From Bradyrhizobium sp. RP6 (GTDB taxonomy: Bacteria; Pseudomonadota; Alphaproteobacteria; Rhizobiales; Xanthobacteraceae), in NCBI RefSeq assembly GCF_003837805.1, contig NZ_RQIT01000009.1, positions 1 through 64,000 on the forward strand: a stretch of 64,000 nucleotides of DNA. Reading direction: 5' to 3'. Within the stretch, counting starts at the first letter, position 1, and each line of letters opens with the position of its first letter. Shown here one piece after another: positions 15,931 to 21,113 of the stretch. The translations under genes and the position numbers were made by a program. Below the pieces are notes generated by a model. The model ran no database searches. It saw only the letters and a list, made by a program, of their open reading frames with translations, and was not told the origin of the DNA.

Positions 15931-16569
15931 TCAGGACATCGGCGGTGCGACGAATTGCGCAAATCCGGTCCGTCTGCCGAGCTCGGCGAGCCAGCGGGTG
16001 AGGTGCGGCTGCGCGGGCCGGCTGATGCCTTCGACCCCGAGCCAGCGCCGCGCATAGGACCCGGTCGCGATGTCGGCCAGCGTGAACGCATCACCCTCGA
16101 TGAAGCGGCGCGATGAGAGCAGGCGGTCGGCGATGGCCCAGACCTCGGCGGCGGCATCGGCATCGCGCTGCACCTGGATCATGTCGCGCTCGGCGGGCGC
16201 CGTGCGCACGATGCCCCAGAACACCGGGCGGTCGACCGGCTGCACCGTCGACAGCGTCCAGTCGAGCCAGCGTTCGACCGAGGCGCGCTGCTTCGGCGCC
16301 TCCGGGTAGATCGGCGTGCCGCGTCCATGCGCAAGGCAGAGATAGCGCATGATCGAATTGGACTCCCACAGCACGAAGTCGCCCTCGACCAGCGTCGGGA
16401 TCCGCGCATTGGGGTTCATCGCGAGATAGTCGGCCTCGCGCGTCCTGCCGTAACTCATGCCGGCATCGATGCGCTCGTAAGCCAGGCCGAGCTCGGTGCA
16501 GCACCACAGCACCTTCTGCACGTTGACCGAATTGGCGCGGCCCCAGATCGTCAGCTTGGTATCAGGCAT
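15931..16569 (-). CDS. Glutathione S-transferase family protein
   Basis: 212 residues. A thioredoxin-like N-terminal domain (LTIWGRANSVNVQKVLWCC; cis-Pro in ARIPTL; ESNSIMRYL for glutathione gamma-Glu contacts) is followed by the all-helical GST C-terminal domain (FIEGDAFTLADIATG, the N-capping box). Size and layout match typical soluble bacterial GSTs. The substrate cannot be told. The neighbouring glyoxalase is also glutathione-linked, though not obviously in the same operon. Confidence 0.88.
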   Translation of the reverse strand: MPDTKLTIWGRANSVNVQKVLWCCTELGLAYERIDAGMSYGRTREADYLAMNPNARIPTLVEGDFVLWESNSIMRYLCLAHGRGTPIYPEAPKQRASVERWLDWTLSTVQPVDRPVFWGIVRTAPAERDMIQVQRDADAAAEVWAIADRLLSSRRFIEGDAFTLADIATGSYARRWLGVEGISRPAQPHLTRWLAELGRRTGFAQFVAPPMS

Positions 16570-16654
16570 GAAGCGTCTCCCCGCATTGTCGCATGCTGCG
16601 GGTGATAGCGGAATTCGCCGCGTCGAGCGATGCGCGATTGCGGCGCGCCCTCAT

Positions 16655-16684
16655 GCAAAAAGCTCCGCACGCGGCGGAGCTTTC
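16655..16684 (-). terminator. Terminator downstream of the 26-aa membrane protein
   Basis: AAAGCTCCGC and GCGGAGCTTT arms with a short loop; on the minus strand the stem ends in a T run. It lies just past the stop codon at 16707. Confidence 0.7.
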
Positions 16685-16706
16685 GTTGCAAAGTTCAACC
16701 TGACGG

Positions 16707-16787
16707 TCAGCGGCCGAAGAACAACCACAACAGAATGATCACCGGGATCGGCACGCCAAGCATCCACAGCAACAGCCCTCTCGCCAT
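16707..16787 (-). CDS. 26-aa one-helix membrane peptide
   Basis: A strong GGAGGAGG stands before the ATG. The peptide begins MARGLLLWMLGVPIPVIILL and ends WLFFGR: a single hydrophobic helix with Pro-containing middle and basic ends. A terminator follows directly, so it is a complete mono-gene unit. Short peptides of this pattern recur across rhizobia; their function is unknown. Confidence 0.65.
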   Translation of the reverse strand: MARGLLLWMLGVPIPVIILLWLFFGR

Positions 16788-16856
16788 CGCATCCTCCTCC
16801 AATTGCCTCACTGGAAGATGAACGCGGGCCGTGCTCGCTTGTTCCCGCGCGCAGAC

Positions 16857-17309
16857 CTACCAATGACCGGTGTTCGGCATCGACGCCCACGGCTCCTGCG
16901 GCGGCTTCGGATCGCCCTTCTGCAACAGCTCGATCGAGTGCAGGTCCGGCGAGCGGACGAAGGCCATGTTGCCGTCGCGCGGCGGCCGGTTGATGGTGAC
17001 GCCGGCCTTCATCAGCTTCTCGCAGGTGGCGTAGATGTCGTCGACCTCATAGGCGAGATGGCCGAAGAAGCGGTCCTCGCCGTACTTTTCTTCGTCCCAA
17101 TTCCAGGTGAGCTCGACCAGCGGCGCGCCGCGCGTCGGCGGCTGCTTCTTCAGCGCCTCGAGATCGTCCGCCGAGCACAGGAACACCAGCGTGAAGCGCC
17201 CCTTGTCGTTCTCGATCCGGCGCACCTCCTTCAGCCCGAAAGCATCAACATAGAATTTCAGCGCGACATCGAGATTGCGCACGCGCAGCATGGTGTGGAG
17301 GTATCGCAT
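16857..17309 (-). CDS. gloA: Lactoylglutathione lyase (glyoxalase I, VOC fold)
   Basis: 150 residues from ATG-17309, preceded by GGGAG. MRYLHTMLRVRNLDVALKFY with metal-ligand His5, FYVDAFGLKEVRR, and HLAYEVDDIYATCEKL then GVTINRPPRDG follow the GloA pattern of two beta-alpha-beta3 modules. It would isomerise the hemithioacetal of methylglyoxal and glutathione to S-lactoylglutathione. The in-frame extension to 17606 upstream reads through the neighbouring gene and is not used. Confidence 0.82.
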   Translation of the reverse strand: MRYLHTMLRVRNLDVALKFYVDAFGLKEVRRIENDKGRFTLVFLCSADDLEALKKQPPTRGAPLVELTWNWDEEKYGEDRFFGHLAYEVDDIYATCEKLMKAGVTINRPPRDGNMAFVRSPDLHSIELLQKGDPKPPQEPWASMPNTGHW

Positions 17310-17446
17310 GGTTGTTGCTCCCTGGAACGGACGGAGGGTTTTGTCTTGGGCCGGGACGGCGAGGTAGGAAATAGCAGGAAAAGGAGAGGAGGGGCAGGGG
17401 GCCGAGGCAAATGTGCGTGAAGGGTGCCGGTTCGGCTCGGACTGCA

Positions 17447-18106
17447 TCACGTTCGAAGCAGCGCCGCCATCTCTTTCCAATGATAGGTTCGCACCTTCTC
17501 CGTTTGATGCCGCGCGGCTTTGGCGATGGCGTGCGCGATGTCGTTTCCGGCAAGTCCGCGATAGCGGTCGGCCGGGCCAACGAGTAGCGGATCGAGTACG
17601 CCCCATATTGCGATGATGAGGCGTTCACCCGGGCGGTCCTCGTCGCGCGCGCCGAGGATCATCGACGGGCGGAAAATATGCGTGTGCTCGAAGTCGACCG
17701 AGAGAATGTCCCGCTCCACCTCGCCCTTGGTCCTGAGATAGAACACGCCGGAGCCGGCGTGGGCGCCAACGGCCGTAACCAGAAACACCGATTGCGCGCC
17801 GTTCGCCTTCGCGATCTCGGCCGCCAACACCGGATAATCATGATCGATCTTGTAGTACTCGGCCTCGTCAGGGGTGTGCTTGCGCGTCGTCCCGAGTGCG
17901 ATGAATATCTCGTCCGCAACCAGTTGCGGCTTGAGTGCGGGCAGGGAGGCGAGATCGCCGATCAGCACCGTGAGCTTCGGATCGCTCACCGCCAGCGGCT
18001 TGCGGGCCACCGCCACAACCCGCGAATAGTCGGGACTGTTCAACAGGCCGCGCAGCAAATGCGAGCCGATGAAGCCGGTCGCGCCGAAGACAAGTGCAGT
18101 TTTCAT
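17447..18106 (-). CDS. NAD(P)-binding atypical SDR-family protein
   Basis: 219 residues. Rossmann motif GATGFIGSHLL (near 8-18) at the N terminus, ending with a helical region. IFIALGTTRKHTPDEAEYYK, VTAVGAHAGSGVFYLRTKGE and THIFRPSMILGARDE match the HTATIP2/YwnB-like atypical short-chain dehydrogenases (YxxxK is replaced by YLRTKGE). It may bind NADPH without a defined substrate. Its 5' end defines the left edge of the accessory zone that follows. Confidence 0.75.
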   Translation of the reverse strand: MKTALVFGATGFIGSHLLRGLLNSPDYSRVVAVARKPLAVSDPKLTVLIGDLASLPALKPQLVADEIFIALGTTRKHTPDEAEYYKIDHDYPVLAAEIAKANGAQSVFLVTAVGAHAGSGVFYLRTKGEVERDILSVDFEHTHIFRPSMILGARDEDRPGERLIIAIWGVLDPLLVGPADRYRGLAGNDIAHAIAKAARHQTEKVRTYHWKEMAALLRT

Positions 18107-18149
18107 TCAAGCCACCGCTTTGCGTTGATTACCTGATCGCTTGTGAAAG

Positions 18150-18237
18150 TCAGGGGGAGTGGCGCCCGAGGTCGTGCAGGCTGCGCAATATCCGGATCGA
18201 GGTTTCCGTTACGGTACAGGCCGCGACATGGCGTGCC
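18150..18237 (-). pseudogene. 3' fragment of a ParE/RelE-family toxin gene
   Basis: The minus frame encodes HVAACTVTETSIRILRSLHD and then a stop, the C-terminal strands of ParE toxins. It aligns base for base over about 70 nt with the second toxin relic at 22095-22163. The 5' part is missing: the fragment stops where an AGTGCACT-bounded repeat begins, suggesting truncation by that element. Confidence 0.65.
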
Positions 18238-18316
18238 GACAGTGCACTCAACTGGCATTGTCTGCGGCCCGCCCGAATCCGGACAATACCTTTGGGAGCT
18301 AGTGCACTGTCACCGC
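18237..18316. repeat. AGTGCACT-bounded miniature element (RAYT-related)
   Basis: Begins ACAGTGCACTCAACTGG and ends CTAGTGCACTGTCACCG. The first end carries the same 13 bases, AGTGCACTCAACT, as the right end of the RAYT element at 21101; the second end matches the inverted CGGTGACAGTGCACT end. It looks like a non-autonomous relative of that transposon. Confidence 0.55.
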
Positions 18317-18357
18317 AATCACAGCGGCTCTCAAAATTATCAATGGAGAGCTGTGCC

Positions 18358-18471
18358 ATGTCCGACCATAAATTCCAGATCAGCTTTTGGGGCTATCAAG
18401 ATCAGCGCTCCAGGTCTGGCCGGCATCAGTGCCGCGTCCTTGCCGTGTGTCTTTTGCTGTACCGATACTGA
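18358..18471 (+). pseudogene. Small membrane protein family, copy 1 (frameshifted)
   Basis: 37 codons starting MSDHKFQISFWG under the leader CAATGGAGAGCTGTGCCATG shared with copies 2 and 3. After WG the reading frame differs from its relatives. One frame over reads AIKISAPGLAGISAASL, which aligns with GASISADGVWAIGAAVL of copy 2. A 2-nt loss near 18391 would explain this. So this copy no longer encodes the membrane helix in frame. Confidence 0.55.
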
Positions 18472-18772
18472 AAGCAAAAAATTTCGGGCTAGGGGCCTTC
18501 TGGACCGTCTCGTGCACCGATATGGATGACTGACGGCGGTAAAGATTCCCGCATAACGCATCGGAATTCGCCTGTCAGATCAATCACTAACTCACATAGC
18601 GAGCCACGGCGCTTTAAATACATGTGCGATGTTGCAGTCTAACTATCTGGAATCGCTCGATTACCACTTTATCTGTGCCAGCCTTTTTGCGCAGATTTGG
18701 CGGGATGTGCCTAAGTAGAAAAGTCCCCCTGAACGATTCGCTCTTCAAGTTTTTCAAATGGAGAGCTGCGTC

Positions 18773-18889
18773 ATGTCGGACAAACTTCTGGTCAATCTAT
18801 GGGGCGCGAGCATCAGCGCTGACGGCGTCTGGGCGATCGGGGCTGCTGTTCTGATCGTGGTGGTCATCGCCGTAGCGAGGCGAACTTGA
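18773..18889 (+). CDS. Small membrane protein family, copy 2, 38 aa
   Basis: MSDKLLVNLWGASISADGVW is followed by a single helix of about 18 hydrophobic residues and a basic end (ARRT). GGAGA is 8 nt upstream inside a conserved leader (AAATGGAGAGCTGCGTCATG). Same strand, same start residues (MSD) and same length as copy 3. An inner-membrane peptide with cytoplasmic basic tail is predicted. No named family is recognised. Confidence 0.65.
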   Translation: MSDKLLVNLWGASISADGVWAIGAAVLIVVVIAVARRT

Positions 18890-19087
18890 TTAGGAGATGA
18901 GCCACGGCACCCCCCATGAAAAGCAGGCGAGGCTTTTCCACCCGCCATCCACCGTTTCGTGTTTTGGGTGGAGGGCTGAGCGGCAACTTGCAGAAGACTC
19001 TTGCCAACGCTGCAAATCAGGGCGCAATAGATTATCCCCCAGAAAGAAAATGATTCGGGTCTCACGATCTCAATGGAGACCTGTGTC

Positions 19088-19204
19088 ATGTCCGATCATC
19101 AGCTACGCTTCAAAGGCCCTTTCTTCGAATTTGATGCGAAGGGCTGGATGGCGATCCTCGCTGCCATCGTCATTGTTTCACTTGTCCTATGGCTGGCACG
19201 GTAG
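19088..19204 (+). CDS. Small membrane protein family, copy 3, 38 aa
   Basis: MSDHQLRFKGPFFEFDAKGW is followed by a strong single helix (MAILAAIVIVSLVLWLA) and a final Arg. The leader CAATGGAGACCTGTGTCATG is nearly identical to those of copies 1 and 2, while the coding sequences have diverged. That pattern suggests selection on expression signal and on overall helix character. Confidence 0.65.
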   Translation: MSDHQLRFKGPFFEFDAKGWMAILAAIVIVSLVLWLAR

Positions 19205-19221
19205 CTCCACGGGCTTGGCTT

Positions 19222-19292
19222 ACGGTGACAGTGCACTAAAGTCCCGCAGTGCGGGGTGCACACTGCCGATTTAGTGCACTGTCACCGAAAGA
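19222..19292. repeat. Miniature inverted-repeat element related to the RAYT transposon
   Basis: Two 18-bp perfect inverted arms, CGGTGACAGTGCACTAAA and its complement, enclose about 32 bases. The same arm begins the RAYT element at 20379. It has no coding capacity and looks like a transposase-less derivative (REP/MITE-like). Confidence 0.7.
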
Positions 19293-19347
19293 TACATTTG
19301 TCGGCCGGAAGACCCAGGAGCCGTTTCCCAAAGACGATGACTGACCA

Positions 19348-20259
19348 TCATTCCTCGCCGCGGGCCTGCTGGAGTGCCAGCTGTCGCGCGCGGTCGGAAA
19401 TAACTTGTCTGTCGGGCAGAGTACTGATGTGCTTTCGGATAAAGCGGACCGCGCTGTCGTCGAGGGCCCATACGTATTGGCGGGCCTGAGACACAACCTG
19501 CTTGTTAATCTGCAAGACCATCTCTGTGTGATCGCCCCGGGCCAGTGCCTGCAAAGCGGAGGGGTTCTCAGCGGCCGTAAAGGCGATATGGGGCGAGATG
19601 GGCAGAACGACCGCCACAGAAGTGTTCTGGAAATGCATGGGAAGGCACTGCGGCCGGTCGGAGGTTAGCAGGGCATGACGCGATCTCCATAGGTGCAGCC
19701 GCCCCCATGTCATCCGTGCCAGCCGGTTCGCGATGCCTTCAAGGTTCATCAATTGTTGGAGAAAGTTCGAAGCGGCAACAGCGCCAGCATTTGGGTCAGT
19801 CTGCGTGTCGAATTCCTCAAGGGTGGGCGGGAAATCGGGCGGCCTAAGTTCGTCATAGTTTTCACGAAGCCTTTGAACGCTCTCCCTATAAAGCGTGAGT
19901 ACCTGGCCTGTGATTTCTGCGACCGCCTCAGGATTCCGGAACAGCAACGAGAGCAAGAACCTGATCCAGGCATCCCGATCCGTTACTGGCACGTCTATAT
20001 TCCCGCCAATGAAGCTTCGCATGGCCTTGGCGGCACCAGAGTCGACCATGTGCATGAACACGCGTTCAAAGTGCTGGGTAAACTCCGGCGCGACACCCTC
20101 GACCTTGTACAAATCCTTCTTCCAGCCGGTGCCGTCGGGAGATTTCGAGTGCACGACGATCTTCCCCCGGATCTTCCGCATCTCGCATAGAAAGCCGTTC
20201 GTCGCCCACTGCCGCAGATAAAACGCCGGGATATAGTGATGTCTGCTCGGATCACTCAT
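19348..20259 (-). CDS. DUF4238 family protein
   Basis: 303 residues from ATG-20259. The hallmark HHYIPAFYLRQWATNGFLCE opens the protein, followed by conserved blocks such as RDAWIRFLLSLLFRNPEAVA and LLTSDRP. DUF4238 proteins occur sporadically in accessory regions; their biochemistry is unknown. An upstream in-frame extension to 20346 is possible but would run through a perfect 7-bp-arm hairpin (20270-20286), better viewed as a leader element. Nothing in the flanks pairs with it as an obvious operon partner. Confidence 0.72.
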   Translation of the reverse strand: MSDPSRHHYIPAFYLRQWATNGFLCEMRKIRGKIVVHSKSPDGTGWKKDLYKVEGVAPEFTQHFERVFMHMVDSGAAKAMRSFIGGNIDVPVTDRDAWIRFLLSLLFRNPEAVAEITGQVLTLYRESVQRLRENYDELRPPDFPPTLEEFDTQTDPNAGAVAASNFLQQLMNLEGIANRLARMTWGRLHLWRSRHALLTSDRPQCLPMHFQNTSVAVVLPISPHIAFTAAENPSALQALARGDHTEMVLQINKQVVSQARQYVWALDDSAVRFIRKHISTLPDRQVISDRARQLALQQARGEE

Positions 20260-20269
20260 GGTCAACATA

Positions 20270-20286
20270 AAGCCCCTGAGGGGCTT
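20270..20286 (-). promoter_or_regulatory. Leader hairpin 11 nt before the DUF4238 start
   Basis: AAGCCCC-TGA-GGGGCTT, a perfect stem. On the minus strand the only GGGG near the ATG lies inside the stem, so it could mask ribosome binding, or act as a weak terminator (TTTAT follows). Confidence 0.45.
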
Positions 20287-20377
20287 CATTAGGCGCCGAG
20301 GGGCGGGGACGAGGCGCCGAACCTCGGTATAGTCACAAACCTTCACCTTCCAAGCAATCCACCCTGACGTAGCAATT

Positions 20378-21113
20378 ACGGTGACAGTGCACTTAATTGA
20401 TGCCGGGGTTCACGGCCCTGATGCAGCAAGGCTCGTCTCGCTCGCGTCGTCATCCCCGATCACCCCCACCATGTCACCCAGCGCGGCAATGGCCGGGGGC
20501 GCACGTTCTTCGAGGACGGCGATTATGCGCTGTATCGCGACCTGCTTGCGGCGAATTGCAGGGACGCTGGGGTCGATGTGTGGGCCTGGTGCCTGATGCC
20601 GAACCACGTGCACCTGATCCTGGTGCCGTCCGATCCCGACGGACTGCGGCGTGCGCTCTCGCGCGTGCACCGCAGCTACGCCGGGATCATCCATGCGCGC
20701 CGTAAACGTACCGGTCATTTCTGGCAGGGCCGGTTCGGCGCTGTTGCCATGGACGAAGAACATCTCGCGGCGGCGCTGCGCTACGTGTCGCTCAATCCGG
20801 TGCGGGCGCGCCTGGTGCCGCGGGCACAGGACTGGCGCAGGTCGAGCACGCGCGCACATTTGCGCGGCAGGGAGGACGGCGTGACCGCGCTGGCGCCGAT
20901 CCGCGATCGTTTTCCAGAGTTCGCCGATCTGCTGGCGAGCGAACCGGAAGACGATCGGTTCGATGCCCTGCGTTCAGCCGAGAGCATCGGCCGGCCGCTC
21001 GGAGACAGCCGCTTTCTCGCTCGGCTCGAACGTCAGACCGGGCGCGTCCTCAAGCCCGCCAAGCGCGGGCCGAAGCCGTCGGTGGAGTCGGGGGGTATTT
21101 AGTGCACTCAACT
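20378..21113 (+). mobile_element. RAYT-type transposable element with AGTGCACT ends
   Basis: Left end TTACGGTGACAGTGCACTTA at 20377-20396 and right end TATTTAGTGCACTCAACT at 21096-21113 bracket a single transposase-like gene. Two shorter elements with the same ends lie at 18237 and 19222, and a decayed end at 21953. Confidence 0.65.
20422..21102 (+). pseudogene. REP-associated tyrosine transposase (Y1/HUH), start region damaged
   Basis: The frame open from 20422 encodes a typical RAYT: PDHPHHVTQRGN, then RTFFEDGDYALYRDLL, WCLMPNHVHLIL with the HUH pair (HVH), the helix with RSYAG, and HFWQGRFGAVAMDEEHL. However, a TGA at 20419 closes the frame upstream and no ATG, GTG or TTG precedes the conserved N terminus; the first usable start is GTG-20578, inside the domain. 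An upstream ATG in another frame suggests a frameshift. The transposase is probably inactive or badly translated. Confidence 0.75.

Follow-up and report, generated by a model that had tools for sequence, protein, structure and literature searches.

The window analysed here, 64,000 nt of the Bradyrhizobium sp. RP6 genome (contig NZ_RQIT01000009.1, positions 1 to 64,000), carries a three-copy array from an unnamed family of putative one-helix membrane proteins of about 40 aa, which is unmatched in Pfam. The conserved leader ahead of the coding parts appears to form the 3' arm of a predicted hairpin that covers the Shine-Dalgarno (SD) sequence and has a co-varying 5' arm, and comparison of leaders across genomes supports this. 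That the leader is one arm of a co-varying hairpin was missed in the preliminary description of this DNA. Tentatively, and with a probability that falls a little short of even, we interpret the product as a translation-locked, type-I-toxin-like membrane peptide of a new family. Small membrane proteins easily escape gene annotation, and translation-locked membrane peptides in Alphaproteobacteria are poorly charted; the family supplies a defined protein signature and a defined RNA structure, both of which can be searched for, expressed and mutated.

The features of the array, one frameshifted and two intact copies, are collected in Table 1. When up to three mismatches were allowed, the leader pattern TCAATGGAGANCTGTGNCATG was found at 18340, 18755 and 19070 with 0, 3 and 0 mismatches respectively, while three matches were obtained in none of 100 shuffled sequences (shuffled mean 0.02). 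The pattern of leader plus MSD, at the same tolerance, was matched in the 7.7-Mb genome solely at the three window copies, and reversed-pattern controls gave no match. The three copies sharing a leader and MSD, as first described, were thus borne out, and no family copies were found in this genome beyond these three. Copies 2 and 3 each combine an intact match to the peptide HMM with a leader hairpin upstream, which is how the family is defined; copy 1 consists of the leader and a decayed frame. It reads 37 aa, of which the family model covers only the first 13 or so residues, and its DNA is 81-82% like that of the related loci L092 and L090 as far as about +50 to +57. Read on in another frame, copy 1 continues as KISAPGLAGISAAS, which looks like the relative L092 (KVSAQGVIGIVAAVS), and the frameshift thus fits a net loss of 2 nt, as had been proposed, or a gain of 1.

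Table 1. Positions of the array features in the window
Feature	Position	Strand	Remark
750-bp piece	18125-18874		holds copy 1 and copy 2 minus its last four codons; absent in L007 and L008
REP-type repeat	18302-18315	+	left of array; occupies the place expected for the upstream part of copy 1's control region
Copy 1 leader hairpin (predicted)	18324-18354	+	5' arm 18324-18332, 13-nt loop, 3' arm 18346-18354 over GAG of GGAG (18345-18348)
Copy 1 frame, decayed	18358-18471	+	family match over about the first 13 residues, then out of frame
CCCCC element	18725-18729	+	ahead of copy 2 hairpin
Copy 2 leader hairpin (predicted)	18740-18766	+	5' arm 18740-18747, 11-nt loop, 3' arm 18759-18766 over whole GGAG (18760-18763)
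Copy 2 (P0001), intact	18773-18889	+	38-aa single-helix protein
Copy 3 promoter-like stretch (CTTGCC ... TAGATT) and CCCCC element	19000-19040	+	inferred by eye from comparison
Copy 3 leader hairpin (predicted)	19050-19089	+	arms 19056-19063/19076-19083 (CGGGTCTC/GAGACCTG) over GAG of GGAG (19075-19078)
Copy 3 (P0002), intact	19088-19204	+	38-aa single-helix protein
REP-type repeat, inverted	19223-19236	-	right of array

A 12-row protein profile (E up to 0.01) found the family in 69 of 265 Bradyrhizobium genomes, and it is sparse in related genera. With a 32-row profile (E up to 0.001) it was found in 15 of 198 genomes of the family-level sample (8 of 47 genera; four of the 15 genomes belong to the own genus) and in 9 of 297 genomes at the order level (5 of 122 genera; three of the nine own-genus); in the class-level sample of 289 genomes the same profile found the own genome and, among the other 288, one weak partial match. 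All eight relatives that carry names are Bradyrhizobium. At the DNA level, a 951-bp stretch was matched in 29 of 195 genus genomes, own genome counted. Because six of these (G181, G115, G123, G145, G059, G130) match at the REP-type end alone and two (G021, G185) at the flank after copy 2 alone, about 21 of the 29 concern peptide genes.

In the alignment of 32 members, M1, A17 and G19 are invariant and I23, A25 and A26 nearly so, with SAxGxxAIxAA as the core. Lengths range from 34 to 48 aa among the 66 members of up to 55 aa, and the best protein matches within the family reach about E 1e-21. When five members were compared with Pfam, PHROGs and NCBIfam, weak matches only were obtained, under the curated cut-offs where the library has them. 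Pfam against all 32 members gave no convincing match: 13 were weak, none of them to a toxin family (Fst/Ldr, Hok, TisB and Ibs included), and the best (E 0.0033) linked one member to DUF2157. A search of solved structures with the peptide returned a single chance match. The earlier impression that no described family fits therefore holds for the libraries searched, and no rhizobial family of translation-locked small membrane peptides was found in the literature searched. Small ORFs and REP elements of B. japonicum have been described, and the peptide family is absent from the accessible part of that account (PMC5082802).

Inside sub-families the coding parts are under purifying selection. This was assessed on pairs that have the same length and are 60-98.5% identical, with proteins of more than 55 aa excluded; 11 of 45 pairs were saturated. 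In the 34 defined pairs, all within sub-families, dN/dS was 0.05-0.25 in 28 and 0.02-0.29 in 32; the other two pairs had 0.44 and 1.02, the value of 1.02 resting on four changes. The pooled pN/pS was 0.23. The idea that the array is no gene at all, but a repeat with an accidental open frame, could draw on the shortness of the frame and on the REP repeats close by; with dN/dS below 0.5 in 33 of the 34 defined pairs and protein matches down to about E 1e-21 it can hardly be maintained, and it is refuted by the selection test. As for the fast-changing peptide of the preliminary description, it holds in that sub-families differ widely from one another and one constant signal stands before varied peptides; taken to mean positive selection, it was rejected on dN/dS, given the purifying selection inside sub-families.

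The hydrophobic helix is kept throughout. A 17-residue segment with a mean hydropathy of at least 1.6 is present in 66 of 66 members of up to 55 aa, and the C-terminus is net positive in 59 of these 66. Both intact copies of the window have the same length, and their single helix, noted from the outset, extends in this way to all 66 of these members. AlphaFold, run on copy 3 alone, gave one helix over residues 12-37 (mean pLDDT 77, pTM 0.40), with pLDDT block means above 90 across residues 21-38.

In the predicted folds, three or four bases of GGAG are paired in all three window copies. The paired arms are GCGGCTCTC/GAGAGCTGT in copy 1, GCTCTTCA/TGGAGAGC in copy 2 and CGGGTCTC/GAGACCTG in copy 3, and it can be seen that the arms of copy 3 differ from those of copy 1 on both sides. 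In copy 3, further outer pairs are predicted between 19050-19054 and 19085-19089, extending into the start codon. Among members the arms co-vary, as in GCTCTC/GAGAGC, GGTCTC/GAGACC and TTCTC/GAGAA, and further variants are AGGCATG/CATGCCT and GCCCGCAC/GTGCGGGC.

The folds were compared with shuffled sequences at several levels. Taken alone, the 71-nt folds of the window are unexceptional, being matched or beaten by 23 (copy 1), 10 (copy 2) and 21 (copy 3) of 200 shuffles. For the family as a whole, 76 leader entries gave 75 distinct ones (L133, L134 and L145 are duplicates; L148, whose start is unclear, and one other distant locus were omitted). With the upstream 29 nt shuffled as the baseline, the mean z of these 75 leaders was -1.70 versus -0.40 for 153 neighbouring control genes, whose start codons were picked by a simple SD rule (Mann-Whitney p 3e-13; related sequences are counted separately, so that p-values are not independent). 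The fold reached p<0.05 in 32 of 75 leaders versus 16 of 153 controls; 43 of the 75 did not fall below that level, and the window copies 1, 2 and 3 gave 0.050, 0.124 and 0.010 in this test. A cruder perfect-stem test put 25 of 75 leaders at p<0.05. Mean SD pairing was 0.76 in leaders versus 0.57 in controls; the contrast was weaker when only pairing above 0.8 was counted (28/75 versus 35/153). Folds of about 130 nt around the two intact copies were no more stable than shuffles, but the hairpin was still part of the minimum-energy fold. The standard leader motif is absent in 22 of the 75 leaders, and no hairpin could be detected in some of them, for example L100, L111 and L142.

Covariation was then scored. 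The SD pattern was present in 53 of the 75 leaders, 52 remained when a near-duplicate was removed, and 51 were aligned (L128 was left out). On these 51 leaders, aligned by sequence alone, the covariation score was 0.249, whereas slid partners gave at most 0.165 and none of 500 shuffles reached the observed value. Of the cells in this alignment 72% pair and 28% do not; 30 cells are changed on both sides versus a shuffled mean of 15.4 (again 0/500). The number of pairs with a both-side change, 6 of 10, was not unusual, since 100 of 500 shuffles reach it and slid partners reach 7. A model-fitted alignment of 57 leaders scored 0.260, a value to be read in the knowledge that fitting leans toward structure. 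RNAalifold on a plain MAFFT alignment of the leaders gave no consensus structure and no pairs, which we tentatively attribute to differing loop lengths that displace the 5' arm. Among seven distant homologues, four (L147, L149, L150, L151) beat shuffles at p<0.05 with the SD mostly paired, and L142, L143 and L146 do not.

A covariance model built from these 51 leaders proved private to the family. In the own genome it has exactly three matches, the three copies (E 5.4e-8 for copy 1, the best, 6.2e-6 for copy 2 and 6.3e-6 for copy 3). At E up to 0.01 it matches 49 of 257 genus genomes, with 59 matches in all. Of the 45 strong matches (E<1e-3), many of which had trained the model, 34 precede a full family frame, nine a partial, shifted, variant or decayed one (that in G207 was recognised mainly by eye, model E 1.6) and two none. 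Eight leaders lay outside the training set (two in G060, and one each in G067, G032, G206, G207, G220 and G230); six of these precede a family-like N-terminus, and the two exceptions are each the first of two tandem leaders. In the family-level sample the leader model was found in 10 of 198 genomes (E up to 0.001), nine of which also have a protein match. In many other genomes, too, the leader thus stands ahead of similar frames, and their helix is conserved; the preliminary description survives the refuting condition that was set for it. ATGGAG is present in 38 of the 45 strong leader matches, at a distance from the start codon of 15 nt in 27, of 14, 16 or 17 nt in ten and of 12 nt in one; the ATG in AATGGAG was considered as the start codon and rejected, being out of frame in 10 of 38 leaders.

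The 14 matches weaker than E 1e-3 were not counted as members, and those read between 1e-3 and 0.01 were mostly chance. Three (G064, G048, G177) are family loci. The remaining 11 comprise a family variant in G032, a site without a family frame in G154, a heat-shock-like frame, and eight matches (L187, L188, L190-L194, L196; E 0.002-0.006) before one unrelated, conserved 119-aa frame starting MNAALMR, which were judged to be chance because the folds there show no matching hairpin. In L182 (G060) and L185 (G032) two leader hairpins stand about 133 nt apart, and the second precedes a 66-67-aa variant with an extra segment after the conserved core.

A hairpin on the SD sequence could also be opened by temperature or by a ligand. 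ROSE and fourU thermometers are 5' UTR hairpins on the SD sequence, and Bradyrhizobium is known for ROSE thermometers. A leader of this kind, an RNA thermometer or riboswitch for a stress peptide, would be consistent with the short-stem hairpin and with one weak match of the leader model (E 0.0043) in G242, on the minus strand of L195 at about 2767-2812, where the frame that follows resembles small heat-shock proteins. However, a search of 18100-19400 against 4227 Rfam families (E up to 10) returned two unrelated weak matches only, and the same library (E up to 1) on L195 and 19 family loci returned tRNA, a group II intron and weak unrelated matches, with no ROSE at L195. Pairing of GGAG is predicted at 0.76-1.00 from 20 to 50 C in all three copies; the stem is thus predicted unmelted by 50 C, and the peptide is not a heat-shock gene. 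On the Rfam nulls and the in silico melting, this explanation was rejected as a first choice, and we regard it as improbable. We rate as equally improbable that the hairpin serves mRNA stability or the transcription start only, with SD masking incidental. The presumed 5' UTR is indeed short, and the hairpin lies near its presumed 5' end, but pairing tracks the SD arm even as the sequence of that arm changes, and four of the seven distant homologues, though not the other three, fold better than shuffles with the SD mostly paired. Locking of translation by the hairpin is supported as a prediction.

Similarity of DNA among loci is concentrated at about -100 to +120, and within it the control region and the peptide appear to behave as separate modules. 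Among L082, L083, L085 and L090, each of the six pairs is 84-87% alike over the 97 bp that precede the start, against 53-60% in the coding sequence, which is the level of random family pairs (57%, sd 6%). A conserved expression signal before varied peptides, as the preliminary description had it, is therefore present in these four genomes as a common presumed promoter and leader before divergent peptides. Such reuse of a control region with different peptides would be an unusual evolutionary mode for so small a gene. Tandem copies also occur in L077, L081, L090, L093, L182 and L185, and recombination in tandem arrays would explain the mixing. Of 66 members, 36 have CCCC within -60 to -33 (in shuffles 10.9 on average and 18 at most), and by eye promoter-like CTTGCC/TTGACN and -10-like stretches recur about 60-95 nt upstream. 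When the window was scanned with a promoter consensus, matches on both strands stayed at chance level, and the promoter-like stretch of copy 3 was not flagged. In the same four loci, at about -100 to -65, a common GTGTCAGTCATTTGACAC-like inverted repeat overlaps the presumed -35 element and may be an operator.

The array lies among REP-type repeats, and a Y1_Tnp (RAYT-type) gene at 20578-21102 follows the REP pairs, in agreement with the RAYT neighbourhood described at the start. The repeat is rare: of the five genomic copies of its 15-mer AGTGCACTGTCACCG, four lie in the window. One inverted REP pair stands around the peptide array (18301-19237) and the next (19273-20393) around a DUF4238 gene (19348-20346), and the stretch 18301-20393 looks like cargo cassettes bracketed by REP. 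Two tandem copies are bracketed in the same way in L077. Family loci totalling 1.0 Mb contain 23 exact 12-mer cores, and nine of these are no farther than 350 nt from a peptide gene, a zone that makes up 4.8% of the bases (p 6e-7); the cores are not independent, as they come from six loci and three of the nine are in the window. In L007 and L008, the left flank up to 18124 (94% identical) meets the right flank, which resumes at 18875 (85-88%); the two overlap by 3 bp (GCG) at about 1501-1503 of these loci. The right junction falls within copy 2, so that flank sequence makes up its last four codons and stop, and the clean absence of the 750-bp piece may reflect either an insertion or a deletion. 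L183 (G067) has the left flank in common with the window and a decayed copy nearby, MSDHKFEISFW as compared with MSDHKFQISFW in copy 1.

In the mRNA of Fst (par of pAD1), the SD sequence lies within an intramolecular stem-loop, as a review states (PMC8309996); the same arrangement is predicted for the family leader. Fst and Ldr resemble the family in being small hydrophobic one-helix peptides with a positive C-terminus; they differ in that none of 32 members matches Pfam above the cut-off, no antisense RNA was found, the bacteria are others, and the family has its own core, given above. TisB, ZorO, Hok, Ibs and DinQ, type I toxins of E. coli, are chromosomal small membrane peptides under RNA-level control, some of them duplicated. 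The family is likewise chromosomal and in part duplicated, but no homology to these toxins was detected and no antitoxin RNA was identified for it, because outside about -100 to +120 DNA similarity among loci reveals no conserved second gene or neighbour RNA and promoter-like sites are at chance level. Proteins of the MgrB type are also about 40-50 aa with one helix; copy 3 has a chance-level match to the MgrB model (E 0.12), which is far below the cut-off, and no partner kinase gene was noticed alongside.

A toxin-like role is suggested by likeness in size, helix, charged C-terminus, locked SD, tandem duplication and frequent decay. The members lie within the usual bounds of type I toxins (less than about 60 aa, one hydrophobic helix), and an mRNA structure hiding the SD is predicted, though not for every member and with weak single-leader statistics. 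Type I systems are defined by an antisense RNA, and as none was found here, we do not file the family as a type I member. The mechanism we favour is as follows. Each copy would be a self-contained gene of about 220 bp with its own putative promoter, a short 5' UTR and a one-helix protein of about 34-48 aa. The 5' UTR would form a hairpin of about 7-11 bp, closed by an A/U-rich loop of about 11-14 nt; the SD and sometimes part of the start codon would lie in its 3' arm, so that translation would be off or low by default. The hairpin would be opened by a trans-acting event: processing of the RNA, a small RNA that is lost or arrives, or a ribosome that loads on the A/U-rich loop. The released peptide would then insert into the inner membrane, probably with its C-terminus inside, and might slow growth as a toxin-like effector, much as Fst, Ldr or TisB do. 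As far as comparison of sequences can establish, the family, its purifying selection, its hydrophobic helix, a co-varying potential hairpin and the reuse of the control region stand, and the anatomy of the family is secure; toxicity and the opening signal are the least certain parts of the proposal.

The size and the one helix would also suit a phage holin or a prophage-gene relic, a role raised in the preliminary description and not upheld here. By tblastn, no match was obtained in plasmids with both intact copies or in phages with copy 2 alone, and a scan of viral contigs with the copy 3 group alone gave none; the one weak PHROG match (E 0.021) concerned a family whose function is not known. 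No lysis gene was noticed next to the peptide. Absence from phages weighs against this explanation, a phage origin was rejected on these nulls, and we hold it to be very improbable.

A housekeeping or regulatory peptide would likewise fit the strong purifying selection. The members may be non-toxic small membrane proteins that regulate or anchor a larger membrane complex or a defence or stress system; the hairpin would only tune the dose, the peptide gene would head a small operon wherever a larger gene comes closely after it, and solitary copies would act on partners elsewhere. This is a serious competitor, though we consider it somewhat less probable than the toxin-like reading. Besides purifying selection, it is favoured by the next predicted gene, which in 35 of 61 loci has the same orientation and in 26 of these is within 150 nt or overlaps; among these followers is a protein with an ApeA N-terminal domain match. 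In four loci (L101, L113, L117, L123) a 462-aa protein begins about 43 nt after the peptide stop; two were tested, and ApeA_NTD1 matched the first 330 residues of the L101 protein at E 4.7e-6 (above the cut-off) and the whole L117 protein at 3e-4 (below it). ApeA acts against phages. Motifs of the form RN(x2-3)H, which HEPN proteins typically carry, were found in 4 of 19 next-gene families versus 21 of 442 other ORFs (p=0.015), a comparison chosen after the fact. On the other hand, a co-directional share of about half is close to chance, and some frames in the crude gene calls are spurious. Neighbour genes vary between loci, no partner is common to most of them, and the window copies are without a same-strand downstream partner in the gene calls used. 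A search for a constant downstream partner therefore ended without one; what recurs are ApeA-like, HNH-looking and recombinase-like proteins, and some followers look HEPN-like. PADLOC gave no match up to E 0.1 for eight such neighbours or the two peptides.

Starting from the translation-locked, toxin-like reading, a broader and more speculative proposal can be made, which we think rather unlikely as a whole. The control cassette of promoter, C-rich start region and hairpin would be passed between membrane peptides by recombination at the start codon, with tandem arrays and REP/RAYT repeats as the shuffling ground. The products would be diversifying, translation-locked effectors, the first type-I-like toxin family of Bradyrhizobium and relatives, possibly tied to anti-phage islands.

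Some further observations concern the neighbours. A tyrosine-recombinase-like protein of about 300 aa follows the peptide in L119, L121, L122, L124, L127 and L128, 0-8 nt past the stop in five and overlapping in L128 (a crude call); the one of the six that was tested had no Pfam match. An HNH-looking follower occurs in two loci, and the one tested had no Pfam match either. In L088 (minus strand) a peptide-like N-terminus is in frame with an HNH-looking protein, and in L080 the two are overlapping genes, so that L088 may be a natural fusion. The same GST gene adjoins seven loci (the window at 15931-18106, L091, L099, L106, L109, L112 and L126), and the same glyoxalase gene six of the seven. The GST site of the window also has an NAD-binding epimerase; different peptide sub-families and cargo are found at one site, which may be an integration hotspot.
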